Positions 6,375-61,875 of a DNA stretch of 64,000 nt are shown here, in pieces. The first letter of the stretch is position 1; each line of letters begins with the position of its first letter. The stretch spans positions 1 to 64,000 of IMG/VR virus record IMGVR_UViG_3300017786_003484; one strand, written 5' to 3'. Position numbers and translations under genes: made by a program. The stretch is from a virus. The notes under the pieces are model-generated. The model was not told the origin of the DNA and did no database searches. It saw nothing but the letters and a program-made list of their open reading frames with translations.

Positions 6375-7369
6375 TACTGCCACCATCCAAACAACTTTAA
6401 GTTAGTTCTCCAATGTACATCATCATATGTTAAAGGTTTTTCAGGATGTAACTGTAACTGTTTAAAGAGTAAACTAGCACTTTCGTCTAATATTGGCAAG
6501 TTAAATCCGTAAACCTCATTTACTGCATCTTGGAGTTCCTTCATGCCTCTTTCTGTTATTGTTTCAAAACTCTTGAAGTATTCATTAAACCATTCGTAAT
6601 CCCTGATCAATGTGTAGTCAAAATTATTAAAATATAACTGTCTAATAGCAGTACGAGCACCTATAATACTCCATATACCATTTTTAACATCAGCACCAAC
6701 TGTTAGCCATGTTAGCAATCGTTGATAGTTTGCGGCATGCATTATTTCTTTAATATTGTCTTTATTAATTACTTTTCCAGCTTCGGTTGAAAGTTTAACT
6801 CCTTCTCTAAAGCCTACACGAAAAGCCTGATAAGGAGATGCATTTGTATAAACAGTTGAATAACAACCGGGTAGTTCCTTGTACTGTGATTCGTCCCAAC
6901 AAAAATCAACTTCATCTCGTTCAGTATTTGATGCTTCGTGACTTTTCATTGACATTAGATGTTCTGTATTCCATAGTTTTAATCCGCCATTACCATACAT
7001 TAATCCATTTGTAAACTGTCTACCGCCCCAAGTGTAAGACATAAATCCTATACCTTTAGGAAGACGTAATTCAAAGAAAGCAGGATCTACTATACTATCC
7101 GCATCAACTGTGATTACATATCCAGCATTAGGAAAAACCTGAGCCGCGGCTTTATGACAAGCATCAAATCCTTTAACACCATGTACACGTTGTACTTCTT
7201 GATGTGGTGTTGTTAGTTGTAATGTTTTCCAGTTAGCGTCAGCATTTGGCTCATCAAAACTTAGAAATACAATAGGAATATCTCTGGTAGTTCTAGCAGT
7301 ATGCTTTACATTTCCTGCAAGTATCTTTGCTTTATCGTCTTTTGATAGTTTAAACATTGACATTGTCAA
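6374..7369 (-). CDS. GT-A-like glycosyltransferase, paralogue 1 of 3
   Basis: One of three tandem related genes. It has a strand IPIVFLSFDEPNADANW, a DACHKAAA helix, a DAD metal/nucleotide-sugar type motif at residues 89-91 (ITVDADSIVD), and the family-shared block YGNGGLKLW after it. All are also in the genes at 7350-8216 and 8221-9195. The arrangement resembles GT-A-fold glycosyltransferases with a DxD motif. It overlaps the next gene upstream by 20 nt and ends at the methyltransferase-like start. Similar genes in marine T4-like phages are usually left as hypothetical. The donor and acceptor cannot be deduced. Confidence 0.6.
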   Translation of the reverse strand: MTMSMFKLSKDDKAKILAGNVKHTARTTRDIPIVFLSFDEPNADANWKTLQLTTPHQEVQRVHGVKGFDACHKAAAQVFPNAGYVITVDADSIVDPAFFELRLPKGIGFMSYTWGGRQFTNGLMYGNGGLKLWNTEHLMSMKSHEASNTERDEVDFCWDESQYKELPGCYSTVYTNASPYQAFRVGFREGVKLSTEAGKVINKDNIKEIMHAANYQRLLTWLTVGADVKNGIWSIIGARTAIRQLYFNNFDYTLIRDYEWFNEYFKSFETITERGMKELQDAVNEVYGFNLPILDESASLLFKQLQLHPEKPLTYDDVHWRTNLKLFGWWQ

Positions 7370-8216
7370 ATTCCTTTTCTAACCATTCCCAGTTATTAAT
7401 TAGATTCATTTTCTCACTATTAGCATATTTTAAACCATGCTTAACTCCAGCTTTTGCTCCTTTAATAACCCACTCTGCATTTAATCCTTCTGATACTGTT
7501 GACCATACATGATATCTCACAGATGCTTCGAACACTTCATCAAAGTAATTATGTGTTAGCAAACTTTCTCTATACTTTTCAATTATAATACTTCTTTTGC
7601 CGCCTCTGTATGATGACTTAGATTTGCTATCCCAATCTTGTTTTTGTATATGTTCTTCCAACCTAACAAATTCTTTTTCTCTTTGTTGTTCTCTTCTTTT
7701 AATTGCACCAAAAACTGAACCTAATGATGCTAGTTTTGCACACTCTCTAAATGCGCCTATAAACGCACTATCTGGTGTTGCGTTAAATCTTGTTTCACAA
7801 CTAACTTTAGACTTAGCAATAGTAGATGCTCCTATTGTTGTAGACAAATCAATTTCCCAACTGCGACCTTCTAAAAATGGCTTTTTAGGAAACAACTTAA
7901 CTCCGCCATATCCATATTCTAATCCATTGACTGGATTAACACTATTCCATACAATTACACACTCGTCTTCTGGATGATCCCAATGTAGTTCGTTTGGATC
8001 TGGAACAAAATTAAAATCAAAGTCATCTACAATCCAAGCATCAGCATCAACTACATAGAAGTTGTCTGTTGCTGACTGTTCTGCACAAGTTTTATGTACT
8101 TCATAGATTCCTTTAACATCTCTTACTTCTTTGATGTTTGGAACAAATTTTGTTAGTCTCTGGTAGTTTTCTTCTGCGTTCCATTCGCCTTGGGAAATAA
8201 AAAATACATCTAACAT
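7350..8216 (-). CDS. GT-A-like glycosyltransferase, paralogue 2 of 3 (most divergent)
   Basis: Shares with its two neighbours the amino-terminal strand LDVFFISQGEWNAEENY, a VKGIYEVHKTCAE helix, a DAD motif at residues 57-59 (YVVDADAWIVDD) and the block YGYGGVKLFP. It lacks the DEPNAD signature seen in both other copies and is shorter (288 residues). In the middle it has a charged insertion (KRREQQREKEFVRLEEHIQKQ) that may form a coiled coil. Its start lies 4 nt past the stop of paralogue 3. Probably a diverged duplicate with altered specificity. The glycosyltransferase call is from fold-like motifs only. Confidence 0.55.
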   Translation of the reverse strand: MLDVFFISQGEWNAEENYQRLTKFVPNIKEVRDVKGIYEVHKTCAEQSATDNFYVVDADAWIVDDFDFNFVPDPNELHWDHPEDECVIVWNSVNPVNGLEYGYGGVKLFPKKPFLEGRSWEIDLSTTIGASTIAKSKVSCETRFNATPDSAFIGAFRECAKLASLGSVFGAIKRREQQREKEFVRLEEHIQKQDWDSKSKSSYRGGKRSIIIEKYRESLLTHNYFDEVFEASVRYHVWSTVSEGLNAEWVIKGAKAGVKHGLKYANSEKMNLINNWEWLEKEFDNVNV

Positions 8217-8220
8217 CTAA

Positions 8221-9195
8221 TCAACCTACTATTAACTGATCAACATCAGCTTCTCTAACTAATGGTGCTAGTCTGATAGGATTAAAGTAACTGGCTTTAT
8301 AAAACTTACTTGCTTCTTCATTTAGTGTAGATATTTCTAAACCCATATCTTGCTTTAATATTCTTCCTAGCTTTTCTACTTCATTGTATAATTTTTTTGT
8401 ATTCCAAGAGAAGTCGCTTATTACACAATGCTCATCTGTTCCGTAAAACTTTGGAGCAACTTCTTCATGCCAATATTTATTATGCCATTCAAAGTCTCGT
8501 ACTAGTGTAAAATCAAATTCATTTCTTTTTAGATTTGTCATATAGCAACCTAAACGAGCACCATATATTGCCCACATACCATTCTCTACATCAGAGCCAA
8601 CACTCATCCATATTAAAAGTCTTCTATGATTTTTATAATTATTTTTCTCTGCTACTTGTCGCCAATCCATAGGCTCACCGTTATGTAATGCTAACTTAAC
8701 ACCTTCTCTAAACCCTGCTCTATATGCTTGGTAAGGAGTTCTATTATTATAAACATCACTATAGATATTGTTTAACTGATGATAATGTATATCCCAGCAA
8801 AAGTCAACAGCACCTGCTCCGCTGTCTACTTCTTCATGTGTTCTCATCTGTTCTACTACTTTTACAGGCCACAACTTAATTCCACCATTGCCATATACTA
8901 ATCCATTGATTACATTTTTACCGGACCAACTTAATACGTCAGCTTCGTGAAACTTTTCTATATCTAGTTCAAGTTCAAAGAAATCTTCTCTTACTTTATT
9001 ATCTGCATCAATACCAATGAAGCGTTCTGTTTCAGATAGTTTAGCGGCGGCTTTATGGCAAGCATCAGATCCAAATACTCCGTGACTTCTTTTAGCCCAA
9101 GGACAAATTGATTGTAAATGAGCCCAATTCTCGTCTGCATTTGGTTCATCGTAACTGATAAACACAACATCATATTCGCTTATAGGCACACTCAT
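8221..9195 (-). CDS. GT-A-like glycosyltransferase, paralogue 3 of 3
   Basis: Closest to paralogue 1: both carry SFDEPNAD or SYDEPNAD, DACHKAAA, a DAD motif (here residues 63-65, IGIDADNKVRED), YGNGGIKLW, a VDFCWD segment, and later PYQAYRAGFREGVKL versus PYQAFRVGFREGVKL. The shared architecture over the whole length shows tandem duplication. Length 324. Its ATG overlaps the stop of the upstream gene as ATGA. Likely soluble and cytoplasmic. It may glycosylate a virion protein, host surface glycan or DNA. None of these can be chosen from sequence. Confidence 0.6.
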   Translation of the reverse strand: MSVPISEYDVVFISYDEPNADENWAHLQSICPWAKRSHGVFGSDACHKAAAKLSETERFIGIDADNKVREDFFELELDIEKFHEADVLSWSGKNVINGLVYGNGGIKLWPVKVVEQMRTHEEVDSGAGAVDFCWDIHYHQLNNIYSDVYNNRTPYQAYRAGFREGVKLALHNGEPMDWRQVAEKNNYKNHRRLLIWMSVGSDVENGMWAIYGARLGCYMTNLKRNEFDFTLVRDFEWHNKYWHEEVAPKFYGTDEHCVISDFSWNTKKLYNEVEKLGRILKQDMGLEISTLNEEASKFYKASYFNPIRLAPLVREADVDQLIVG

Positions 9196-33329: not shown

Positions 33330-34298
33330 ATGACAACTAATCTAAAAAACGTATACTTAAAGAATAAAGACTTACTTCTTCAGATCCATAAAAGCAAACT
33401 TCAGTTTTGCTGGAAAGAAGATAGGAAATATGGTGATTATGATATCATTTTGCATGACCTAAAACATTTCCATAATCGCAAGACTATAGCATTTCCGGAA
33501 GGAGCTCTTAACATTGCAAAGGCTACTCGAGCCAAAAGATTTGCAGAAGCACTTCATAAAGAGGCTATTAAGCAATGGGAAGAAGAAGGAAAACGTCCTA
33601 GCAAGAAACCAAAAATGGATCAATTTATGGTACCAACAAAATCTATTTCTAACGATGAAATAGTGGTTAGGCTCATGGATTGGGATCATATTCCAGAAGA
33701 ACCAGGACGTAAGACTAATCCTAAAACACCTGCAGATTACAGAGCTAAAGTTAACTTTCCTCCTTTTAAACATTATGTTAAGGAAGACGGAGAGTGGAAA
33801 GAAGTAGTTCGTAGTCATTGGAAAGGTGATTTAGAAACTGGCCACTTTAGTATTGATCATGGAAAGATTACTAATAGGCTTGGCGCAATGTTTCTAAAAT
33901 TATGTGAACGTTATAGTTTACGAAGTAACTGGAGAGGATATAGTTATATTGACGAAATGAGAGGACAGGCTCTTATACAATTAACGCAGATTGCTTTACA
34001 ATTTGATGAGAGCAAGAGTCAAAACCCGTTTGCTTATTATACTGCCGCCGTAACTAATAGTTTTACTCGAGTATTAAATGTTGAAAAGAGACAACGTGAT
34101 ATACGTGACGATTTACTACAAGAAGCAGGGCAAACTCCAAGTTGGACCAGACAAGCAGAGCATATTGAAAAAGTAAAAGCAGAAGTTGAAAGAGCTCTTG
34201 CTTTAAAAGAAGCAGAGAAAGCAGAAAAAGAAAAAGAAGAAAAAGAACCATTATCAGAGATGATTGGACATAATAATCCGCCACCAGAATTTCAGTAA
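33330..34298 (+). CDS. 55: Late-transcription sigma factor gp55
   Basis: The phage-encoded sigma that directs host RNA polymerase to TATAAATA late promoters. The conserved block NWRGYSYIDEMRGQALIQL, FDESKSQNPFAYYTAAVTN, SFTRVLNVEKRQRDIRDDLL at about residues 208-272 matches T4 gp55 (sigma region 2 equivalent). Length 322 against 185 in T4: there is an amino-terminal extension of about 150 residues with basic segments. The end is Lys/Glu-rich and finishes GHNNPPPEFQ, possibly the clamp-binding or flap-binding tail. Preceded by AAGGA and a sigma70 promoter. Fits the TAAATA boxes found through this window. Confidence 0.9.
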   Translation: MTTNLKNVYLKNKDLLLQIHKSKLQFCWKEDRKYGDYDIILHDLKHFHNRKTIAFPEGALNIAKATRAKRFAEALHKEAIKQWEEEGKRPSKKPKMDQFMVPTKSISNDEIVVRLMDWDHIPEEPGRKTNPKTPADYRAKVNFPPFKHYVKEDGEWKEVVRSHWKGDLETGHFSIDHGKITNRLGAMFLKLCERYSLRSNWRGYSYIDEMRGQALIQLTQIALQFDESKSQNPFAYYTAAVTNSFTRVLNVEKRQRDIRDDLLQEAGQTPSWTRQAEHIEKVKAEVERALALKEAEKAEKEKEEKEPLSEMIGHNNPPPEFQ

Positions 34299-37648: not shown

Positions 37649-37843
37649 ATGACAGACCCAAGAGATTCAGCTCACCATATAGCACTAATGGAAAATATGG
37701 ATACTTATATGGCAGAGAACAGAAAGTTTGTAGAAAAGGGAGTTAAGGCTTCTGCAACTAGAGCTCGTAAAGCTCTTCAGGCTATTGCTGTTGCTGTTAA
37801 AGAAAGACGTAAAGAAATCACAGAAGAGAAAAACGCACTTTAA
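37649..37843 (+). CDS. Histone H1-like protein (Hc1 family)
   Basis: A 64-residue protein starting at the ATG at 37649 behind AAGGAG. The stretch ENRKFVEKGVKASATRARKA followed by a basic helix KERRKEITEEK closely follows the Hc1 histone H1-like pattern (EKGNKAAGTRxRKG...EIRxEIQ) of bacterial nucleoid proteins. It probably binds DNA non-specifically and may compact phage or host DNA. Sits between gp46 and a nuclease with ATG/TAA overlap downstream. Confidence 0.7.
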   Translation: MTDPRDSAHHIALMENMDTYMAENRKFVEKGVKASATRARKALQAIAVAVKERRKEITEEKNAL

Positions 37844-38355
37844 TGCCAAGTAAAAGTAAAACTAAAGGATCAAGTTTTGAGAGGGAGGTTGCAACACATC
37901 TCTCAGAAATTTACAACGAAAGTTTTGTAAGAGTTCCAAACTCAGGAGCTTTTGTTGGAGGAATGAATCAGGCTCGTAAAAGCTATCTAAGTGAAGAACA
38001 AATTAGAGGCTTTAAAGGAGATATTATTCCTGGTCCTAGTTTTCCTTTATTGGTATTTGAATGCAAATTTTATGCAGACTTTCCTTTCCATCAGTTACTT
38101 CAAAATACGGACGTACTGATATTAGATGACTGGATAAATCAAACTATAGACTGTATGGATGATGGCGACTTAGGACTTCTTTGTATGAAGTTTAATAGAA
38201 AAGGTCGTTATGTTGCATACGAGGACAAGTTTAAATTTAAGACAACAAGATCTATAAACTATAAAAATTGGCTCATAACAGAATACGATTCCTTTTGGGA
38301 ATTGAATGTAGAACAAGTAAAAACATACTCAAAACTCACAGAGACCATCTCTTAG
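37843..38355 (+). CDS. PD-(D/E)XK nuclease, Holliday-junction-resolvase-like
   Basis: A 170-residue nuclease fold: KGSSFEREVATHLSE carries E13, then GDIIPG has D60 and VFECKF gives E73 and K75, the E...D...ExK arrangement of archaeal Hjc/RecB-like resolvases. Located at the end of the recombination operon after gp46/gp47 and the H1-like gene, so a role in branched DNA resolution or repair is sensible. T4 uses gp49 (endonuclease VII), which is unrelated. This could be its functional replacement. Confidence 0.7.
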   Translation: MPSKSKTKGSSFEREVATHLSEIYNESFVRVPNSGAFVGGMNQARKSYLSEEQIRGFKGDIIPGPSFPLLVFECKFYADFPFHQLLQNTDVLILDDWINQTIDCMDDGDLGLLCMKFNRKGRYVAYEDKFKFKTTRSINYKNWLITEYDSFWELNVEQVKTYSKLTETIS

Positions 38356-38922
38356 ACACATTGGCAAGCTATCTACTGATAGGTTAGTGCAAGCCGTTTA
38401 TATTGCACCCATAAAATCTGGATCAATTAAGGATCGCAGAGGACGGAAGTTCTGAGCAGTAGCAGAGACATATCACCACTATCCTTGACAGGACGTAGTT
38501 CAAACAGCATGAAACTGGACTGGTGTATGTATAGTATTGCTAAAATGAGTAGGCTCTGGTGAACTATTACAACCTACATAACAATAGAATTGGTTTGGTT
38601 TGGTTCTATTTGTTTGCGTTATTACAGTCTAGTGTAAAAGGGTACCGCGTAACCGCCCTAACAGAAATGTTGCTTTAACCAAAGTGTGGTAGAGGTCTGT
38701 GTCAAGACAACCATTTATCTTAGCCCCTAAACGGGGCTAAGTGTGGATAGTTAATCTATGTCAAGCTAAACTTAAAAATATTAGAGTCAAACTTATATAA
38801 TAAAAACTATGTGTTATCGTTTGAAATATAAAATTGAATGAGTAGAGCAACGCGATACGATATTCATGGACGAAGTATTCGTCCTGTAACTGATTCTTAA
38901 CAATGTTAATGAGCAACTCTGG
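38356..38922 (+). ncRNA. 567-nt hairpin-rich gap, candidate structured noncoding RNA
   Basis: No plausible gene on either strand. It contains many short, clean stem-loops: 38369-38382 (5 bp, TACT loop), 38387-38408 (GTGCAA/TTGCAC), 38440-38453 (5 bp closed by a GGAA, GNRA-type, tetraloop) nested in AAGGAT 38429-38434 with ATCCTT 38481-38486, 38549-38577 (GTAGG/CCTAC), 38583-38610 (AATAGAA/TTCTATT around a TTGG repeat), 38719-38741 (9 bp CTTAGCCCC, 5-nt loop) and 38868-38884 (7 bp GGACGAA). None is followed by a T tract. It lies between two converging operons. Strand and boundaries are uncertain. I could not match it to tRNA, tmRNA or RNase P. Confidence 0.5.
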
Positions 38923-39150
38923 CTAACGCATCTGATTAGCAATACCCTTTTTACCATACATTGTATCTATCTTCTCTTTAACTACTTCTGATAAGATTAC
39001 TCTGTCAGTATATGGCATATCCCATACAACTTGTATAGGGTTGCTACTCCAAACACTTAAATTACATATATCTTGGGTTAGGGCTCTTGACTCAGATTCA
39101 AAACTTTCGATATACTTTGTAATCTTATTTGAATCAGTTCCTAGACTCAA
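38923..39150 (-). CDS. 51: Baseplate hub assembly / tail chaperone gp51-like; TTG start or frameshift product
   Basis: A 75-codon frame directly behind the gp26-like gene, the pairing expected for T4 hub-assembly proteins gp26 and gp51. The only start codon near its beginning is TTG at 39150, overlapping the gp26 stop as TTGA, with GAAGG just three bases before it. Alternatively it is reached by a -1 shift on the T run at 39161-39168, which joins it in frame to gp26. The protein is helical (ITKYIESFESESRALTQDIC, VVKEKIDTMYGKKGI). Identification with gp51 is by position and size class. It ends next to the structured gap. Confidence 0.6.
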   Translation of the reverse strand: MSLGTDSNKITKYIESFESESRALTQDICNLSVWSSNPIQVVWDMPYTDRVILSEVVKEKIDTMYGKKGIANQMR

Positions 39151-48912: not shown

Positions 48913-48940
48913 TCCTAGACTAAGCGAAGAAAAAAAATTA

Positions 48941-48975
48941 AGCAGGGCTAGTTTTACTAGCTCTGCTTTTTCTTT
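48941..48975 (+). terminator. Rho-independent terminator after gene 23
   Basis: An 11-bp stem AGCAGGGCTAG/CTAGCTCTGCT (one G-T pair) with a TTTTA loop, followed by TTTTCTTT. It lies 29 nt after the gp23 stop. Confidence 0.9.
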
Positions 48976-48977
48976 GA

Positions 48978-48983
48978 TAAATA
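48978..48983 (+). promoter_or_regulatory. Late promoter box directly after the gene-23 terminator
   Basis: GATAAATATTT immediately behind the terminator T run and 5 nt before the ATG at 48989. A -10 box this close would give a nearly leaderless message from 48989, or use the ATG at 49001. Confidence 0.4.
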
Positions 48984-48988
48984 TTTCT

Positions 48989-49195
48989 ATGTTAGCATCT
49001 ATGAAAGACAGATTATCAAGAGCAAAAATTTGTCATGAGTGCGAGTTTTATACTAGATTTACAAAGCAATGCAAAGAGTGCGGTTGCTTGATCAACTTAA
49101 AAATATCATTTTCTCAAACTTCATGTCCAGTAGGTAAATGGAAATCAGTTGAAAATGGTAGTCAAACTAATTTAATTAAAAATTTTATCTCTTAA
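48989..49195 (+). CDS. Small cysteine-rich zinc-binding protein
   Basis: A 68-residue peptide with CHEC, CKECGC and CPVGKW, five to six cysteines placed as in a small zinc ribbon (C..C..10..C..C.C..15..CP). I recognise similar peptides as short unnamed proteins in marine T4-like phages. Two possible starts (48989 and 49001) lie beside a TAAATA box, without a clear Shine-Dalgarno sequence. Its function is unknown. A regulatory or assembly role is possible. Confidence 0.65.
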   Translation: MLASMKDRLSRAKICHECEFYTRFTKQCKECGCLINLKISFSQTSCPVGKWKSVENGSQTNLIKNFIS

Positions 49196-49212
49196 AAAAT
49201 TAACTCAAACGG

Positions 49213-49218
49213 TAAATA
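49213..49218 (+). promoter_or_regulatory. Late promoter for the holin-fibre unit
   Basis: GGTAAATAGC, 25 nt before the ATG at 49244 and a few bases after the preceding stop, with GGGAG as the ribosome site. Confidence 0.5.
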
Positions 49219-49243
49219 GCATGAAGAACATGGGAGATTTATT

Positions 49244-61505: not shown

Positions 61506-61875
61506 AAAAGAATCCACACCATCTATGCAACTTTTTTAAGTTAATCCCAGCACTAATATGAAATTCTGGTAGAGAAACATTATTAACAACATTCCTCATT
61601 AATACACCATCAATGACTGTACTTTTTACAAGTTTAGCCTTTAGGTTAGTATCTTCGCATATAATTTGTATAATTGGATGGTTCCAGTTTTCGTCAAATA
61701 TAATCTTTCTGGCTTCTAAGTACCAACGTTCTGTGTAGCAAATATTATCTTTATATAACTTGTTTAACAGAGGATTATTCAATCTTTCTTCGTTACACAA
61801 TGTAAATTGCATCTGTTTATGGGGACCACTGTAAAACTCAGCTGGAATTTTATCTTTAACTAATTTTAAACTCAT
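61453..61875 (-). CDS. Hypothetical protein
   Basis: About 140 residues, starting at the ATG at 61875 inside the end of the Nudix gene (a GTG at 61878 is in frame). Features are PAEFYSGPHKQMQFTLCNEE, RWYLEARKIIFDENWNHPII and a carboxy KKLHRWCGFFSSLPDS. No family recognised. It overlaps the convergent glycosyltransferase by 53 nt at its end. Confidence 0.55.
   Translation of the reverse strand: MSLKLVKDKIPAEFYSGPHKQMQFTLCNEERLNNPLLNKLYKDNICYTERWYLEARKIIFDENWNHPIIQIICEDTNLKAKLVKSTVIDGVLMRNVVNNVSLPEFHISAGINLKKLHRWCGFFSSLPDSTKILVDLNDQC

Follow-up and report, generated by a model that had tools for sequence, protein, structure and literature searches.

The window, meaning the whole 64,000-nt stretch of DNA that we analyzed (positions 1 to 64,000 of IMG/VR record IMGVR_UViG_3300017786_003484), belongs to a virus record of 244,432 bases carrying a T4-type gp20 portal, gp46/gp47 and a late sigma factor. 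The late sigma gene opens a same-strand run (MazG, gp47, gp46 and a nuclease) ending in the RNA described here, which lies in a 567-nt gap at 38356-38922. The gap is bordered by a PDDEXK nuclease ORF ending at 38355 (+) and by a converging 75-aa ORF on the opposite strand, both with phage relatives; beyond the gap, the 75-aa gene is followed by a T4-type baseplate hub gene, also on the opposite strand. The features of the locus are as follows.

33330-34298, + strand: late sigma factor gene (gp55-like; phrog_12791, E 8.5e-85)
37843-38355, + strand: PDDEXK nuclease gene, the last gene before the RNA; a SegE-like GIY-YIG nuclease in many relatives
38373-38884, + strand: minimal extent of the whole structured RNA, spanning helix P1 through the 3' terminal hairpin, as drawn from conservation and structure across phage loci
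38382-38530, + strand: match to Rfam RF01718, Polynucleobacter-1 (91.6 bits, model positions 1-141 of 141)
38923-39150, - strand: 75-aa gene, converging, syntenic in relatives

A first-pass annotation of the sequence had singled out this gap as exceptional and proposed that it encodes a large structured phage RNA. Its length far exceeds that of any other intergenic stretch in the window: counting ATG-started ORFs of at least 60 aa, by which rule the TTG-started 75-aa gene is itself counted as gap, the median spacing is 6 nt and the runner-up measures 350 nt. By the same count, the next largest gaps are found at 48913-49243 (331 nt) and 61506-61855 (350 nt). A 64-aa histone H1-like (Hc1) protein gene is located between gp46 and the nuclease (37649-37843, +). 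As the annotation had also remarked, no T-tract terminator was found in the gap, and ARAGORN detected neither tRNA genes nor a tmRNA in the window.

Scanning the window against all Rfam models with cmscan, a check which the annotation had itself suggested, returned a single match above cut-off, namely RF01718 in the 5' third of the RNA (91.6 bits against a cut-off of 37). Polynucleobacter-1 was introduced by Weinberg et al. 2010 (PMC2864571) as a probable RNA from Burkholderiales and from fresh water and estuary; it was rated 'y' (probable) for cis-regulation, a rating which is not part of the model. In our literature full-text search, no paper besides PMC2864571 named RF01718. The novelty claimed for the RNA is thus lost for its first third, which is the known RF01718 motif, and stands for the remainder, which lies outside Rfam and includes a 3' domain with no Rfam family. 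GOLLD and IMES RNAs, raised as examples of possible membership, did not match: in the window cmscan there was no GOLLD match at the gathering threshold or at E<=5, and no Rfam match to ROOL, IMES classes, group I/II introns, RNase P or tmRNA. Two matches below cut-off, CRISPR-DR63 (E 0.015, inside the nuclease gene) and psbNH (E 3.8), were taken as chance.

Relatives of the locus were detected among viral sequences. The RF01718-core pattern was found at 74 IMG/VR loci, which show the same syntenic gap wherever their flanks are present; their gp46 relatives are mostly 53-100% identical. In relatives with enough sequence, gp47 and gp46 are followed by a nuclease gene and the gap, beyond which the 75-aa and hub genes lie on the opposite strand. 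The upstream nuclease varies, being of PDDEXK type in the window's group and of SegE-type GIY-YIG in many others. Conservation continues past the Rfam model through the gap, dropping to its lowest around 38776-38815 and at the distal end. The many indels in the alignment of relatives speak against a conserved ORF, in keeping with the earlier remark that no gene fits. Overall, the RNA is widespread in aquatic T4-like phages. In one phage group (L015, L047 and L065), the distance from the RNA core to the 75-aa gene is about 1.2 kb, reflecting an insertion of about 750 nt.

No isolated phage was recovered by BLASTN, whether the query was the window RNA, either of two relatives or a bacterial copy. 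The nearest isolates by neighbouring proteins are Pseudomonas phage Paride, Sinorhizobium phage Phosso and Salicola phage SCTP-2, and R1, our covariance model of the 3' domain, had no match in the stretches of these genomes that we examined. At the corresponding place, Phosso harbors a 1014-nt unannotated gap (229759-230772; L182 5760-6773) flanked by genes for a Holliday junction resolvase and RNase HI, possibly encoding another RNA. The corresponding Paride stretch (L181 6249-7592), without an R1 match, has no annotated ORFs other than tiny ones and may be non-coding.

Since a global RNAalifold analysis of the full RNA (MAFFT alignment) was poor in the variable parts, the domains were aligned separately. 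The 5' domain alignment contained 47 sequences, and that of the 3' domain 41 sequences, comprising phages of both subtypes described below and bacterial copies. The following elements were recognized.

38373-38378, + strand: 5' strand of helix P1 (CUACUG), pairing with 38457-38462 (CAGUAG) in the P4 loop
38451-38466, + strand: P4 hairpin (UCUG/CAGA) with conserved GCAGUAG loop; three of four pairs change on both sides, 100% paired
38469-38529, + strand: P5, a long helix enclosing P6 (38483-38492) and P7 (38498-38520); seven of nine pairs change on both sides
38547-38741, + strand: conserved 3' domain, no Rfam family (167.9 bits with R1, which is no independent test, the window sequence being in its training set)
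38549-38577, + strand: helix P8; three of five pairs change on both sides, 100% paired
38579-38615, + strand: P9 hairpin, with top covarying columns
38594-38600 with 38677-38683, + strand: P9-loop pseudoknot, pairing kept by two-sided changes
38618-38653, + strand: helix A (GUUAU/GUAAC), crossing helix B (38631-38634/38671-38674) and P10 (38639-38642/38656-38659)
38700-38706, + strand: twin word 1 (UGUCAAG)
38719-38741, + strand: P13 hairpin, between the twin words; 99.7% of cells paired
38759-38765, + strand: twin word 2 (UGUCAAG)
38835-38884, + strand: two 3' stems, the last being the terminal hairpin (38868-38884), variable in sequence and present in most relatives

Compensatory changes were abundant in both domains. 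In the 5' domain, 92.0% of cells are paired and 275 double changes were counted, compared with 84 in shuffled and 13-78 in slid controls; in the 3' domain, 90.5% of cells are paired, with 291 double changes compared with 96 (shuffled) and 26-100 (slid). Together with the conservation of the gap, these counts bear out the proposal of a large structured phage RNA and provide the covariation above background that the annotation had asked to see in relatives. Within the RF01718 part, helices P3-P7 are kept by compensatory changes (in P7 at all four pairs), and P2 is only partly aligned, with 64.8% of cells paired. P1 forms a pseudoknot that is absent from the Rfam model, its CUACUG strand lying outside the model; 100% of its cells are paired, and one pair was seen as U-A, C-G and G-C. 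According to the alignment, the P9-loop pseudoknot differs in sequence from group to group while complementarity is kept; in the window it reads UUUGGUU/AACCAAA. Of the stems picked out by eye beforehand, the 9-bp stem at 38719-38741 is the conserved P13. The hairpin with a GGAA loop (38440-38453) and the AAGGAT/ATCCTT stem around it do exist in the window sequence and are no consensus helices; relatives instead pair UCUG (38451-38454) with CAGA (38463-38466) and CCU (38483-38485) with AGG (38490-38492).

To judge covariation, 40 null alignments simulated on the tree were used alongside the shuffled and slid pair-count controls. In a ranking of column pairs made without reference to structure, P8, P9, helix A, helix B and the P9-loop pseudoknot appeared near the top relative to the simulated nulls. 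The top-ranked pairs were mostly canonical helix pairs, only four of them with E<0.05 individually, so that the strength of the covariation resides in the sum, with few single pairs significant. Covariation shows a compact, multi-pseudoknotted body, in which three or more of the pseudoknots are absent from the Rfam model. Single-sequence folding was modestly better than shuffles (z -1.8 for the + strand and -2.95 for the - strand); folding alone is therefore no proof, which the comparative evidence supplies. In well-aligned helices, G-U cells outnumbered A-C cells by 107 to 9 summed over true helices, and by 27 to 4 in another count, indicating that the + strand transcript is the folding molecule. 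Taken together, the gap at 38356-38922 almost certainly encodes a structured, conserved and mostly unannotated RNA.

Inverted repeats could also mimic RNA helices in an element acting at the DNA level, such as a replication origin or a recombination or packaging site, and the adjacent recombination genes of the phage, like the recombinases close to the bacterial copies, would suit such an element. We consider this highly improbable, given that the excess of G-U over A-C pairs points to structure maintained on one strand, that crossing helices show long-range covariation, and that the bacterial copies described below carry a strand-specific promoter-like box.

The two copies of UGUCAAG that surround P13 recur in relatives as other words, each again doubled: GGUCAAG, AGCGAAAG, AGAUAGA, AGGAAAUAGUUAA and others. 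Sharing averaged 7.15 nt within an RNA and 4.97 nt between RNAs, a value that none of 20000 permutations matched. No constant complement of the twin words was found within the RNA. A repeated binding site or a shared trans partner would be the obvious candidate explanations. Words that are identical within one RNA and differ between phages might pair with a target in trans, making the molecule guide-like, and the permutation result speaks for this. This reading is quite unlikely in our view: the words, mostly 6-9 nt, are too short for a target to be identified by sequence, they have no consistent complement inside the RNA, and a protein site or a tertiary contact could also explain their identity.

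The family proved larger than the Rfam motif. The 3'-domain pattern matched at least 120 viral stretches, and 33 loci match the 3' domain of the profile only, without the RF01718 part. No Rfam family matched in the 16 of these 33 loci that were scanned whole, and permissive thresholds applied to one 3'-domain-only locus gave nothing better than chance. Several such loci are still found between the nuclease gene and the 75-aa and hub genes. Because RNAs lacking RF01718 share the 3' domain, RF01718 is the 5' third of one subtype within a larger family, which comprises two or more subtypes united by their 3' domain.

Copies were also detected in mobile elements of freshwater bacteria, full-length ones occurring in Polynucleobacter. 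RF01718 scored over cut-off in 19 of 186 Polynucleobacter genomes, with two copies in some; in seven genome contigs with the core, the full-length phage profile matches about 335-400 positions, and R1 finds further, more divergent copies. Divergent chromosomal relatives (G001:C1:1476688-1476886 and L191-L197; 41-61 bits with R1, mostly without an above-cut-off RF01718 match) are a further bacterial subtype. The 3'-domain tree unites the bacterial copies in one long-branched clade (support 1.000), a topology suggestive of a single ancient acquisition. The elements housing the copies examined are compact and encode a tyrosine integrase, an AAA clamp-loader-like protein and a 188-aa tyrosine recombinase, together with a DUF6641 gene beside the RNA. 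They thereby show the hallmarks expected of satellites, namely an integrase (Phage_integrase-type recombinase), a compact conserved gene set and patchy distribution (19/186), and elements L076-L082, L161-L180 and L200-L205 look like an undescribed satellite family. In one element (L203), a probable C5 DNA methyltransferase (7660-8742) and a 339-aa ORF (6644-7663) lie, as read from the sequence, between the RNA and the recombinase, which suggests a possible defence cargo site. Another element gene, p135, had no relative in G000, nor in viral contigs by the same search.

The flanks of the bacterial copies share a promoter-like signature. The box (A/C/T)TAAATA is located upstream of the RNA and on its strand in 25 of 25 distinct bacterial flanks (21 CTAAATA and four TATAAATA) and in none on the opposite strand; these flanks are related, so that this and the other box counts are not independent events. 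T4 late promoters carry TATAAATA at -13 to -6, and those of Aeh1 carry CTAAATA starting at -12 (PMC1524935). Among six element features checked, the box occurs only at the RNA and at p135 (3/3), and is absent before DUF6641 (0/25), the small recombinase (0/16) and two others (0/5 each). This pattern suggests that the RNA and p135 would be switched on by the late sigma factor of a T4-like helper. By comparison, only 2 of 79 phage flanks have a late box before the RNA, and no promoter of its own was recognized for the phage copy.

The neighbourhoods also bear on the cis-regulatory rating of Weinberg et al., under which the RNA would be a 5' leader or 3' UTR regulator of an adjacent gene. The published 5' UTR position does not apply in the window and in most phages, where the RNA is followed by an opposite-strand gene; as this gene points toward the RNA in most of the complete phage loci, the RNA is no 5' leader there. 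In Polynucleobacter the RNA does lie upstream of the 188-aa tyrosine recombinase on the same strand, yet other genes intervene in some bacterial elements. A same-strand gene starts shortly after the RNA in a few phages (L115, L105), and in type I phages the RNA follows close behind the nuclease gene, making a 3' UTR role possible, except that the gene preceding it varies (PDDEXK or GIY-YIG). A cis-regulatory role is therefore unlikely.

We instead favour, as the probable overall reading, a structured non-coding RNA that acts in trans, measures at least 510 nt, is made from the + strand and has a late-stage role. The late-stage part would follow mainly from the bacterial copies, the phage copies being without a late box. 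With no late box before the phage RNA and same-strand genes upstream from the late sigma gene onward, read-through and processing is the simplest reading: the phage RNA would most likely be the 3' end of the gp55-gp47-gp46-nuclease run transcript, released by processing. The Polynucleobacter elements would be satellites of T4-like phages, their copy turned on when the late sigma factor of the helper appears. In the last step, drawn by analogy with GOLLD and ROOL, the RNA may act as an RNA scaffold or assembly in later infection; as a claim of its own, we put forward such a function tentatively. More speculative still is the full picture, in which an unrecognized class of large phage RNA would work late in T4-like infection, satellites would express copies from helper-type late promoters, either for use in their own late stage or as competitors for the partner of the RNA, and the twin words would be target-recognition sites. 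In any case, an orphan 141-nt catalogued motif becomes a large multi-domain RNA family of aquatic T4-like phages, and its fixed genomic place by late-transcription and recombination genes, together with cultured Polynucleobacter carriers, makes its function directly testable.

To our knowledge, large ornate phage RNAs have solved structures and no known function. GOLLD differs from the RNA described here, which is shorter, lacks an Rfam GOLLD match and has no tRNA genes in its window. Phage satellites such as P4, PICI and PLE are compact integrative elements with an integrase, an AAA protein and variable cargo. The Polynucleobacter elements are likewise compact and integrative and share these components, but they carry the RNA and are seemingly linked to T4-like phages. 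ROOL, which occurs in phages and prophages, is a large, ornate and pseudoknotted RNA of unknown function (PMC12286853); ours is likewise large, ornate and pseudoknotted, but has no Rfam match to ROOL and another genomic location. The box of the bacterial copies fits the T4 and Aeh1 variants of T4-type late promoters, although its setting is a chromosomal element rather than a phage genome. Finally, 38382-38530 fits the whole 141-nt model of Polynucleobacter-1, well over cut-off, whereas the RNA extends to about 510 nt with the P1 pseudoknot helix and the 3' domain outside the model, and is present mainly in phages, where it holds no 5' leader position, and in satellite-like elements.
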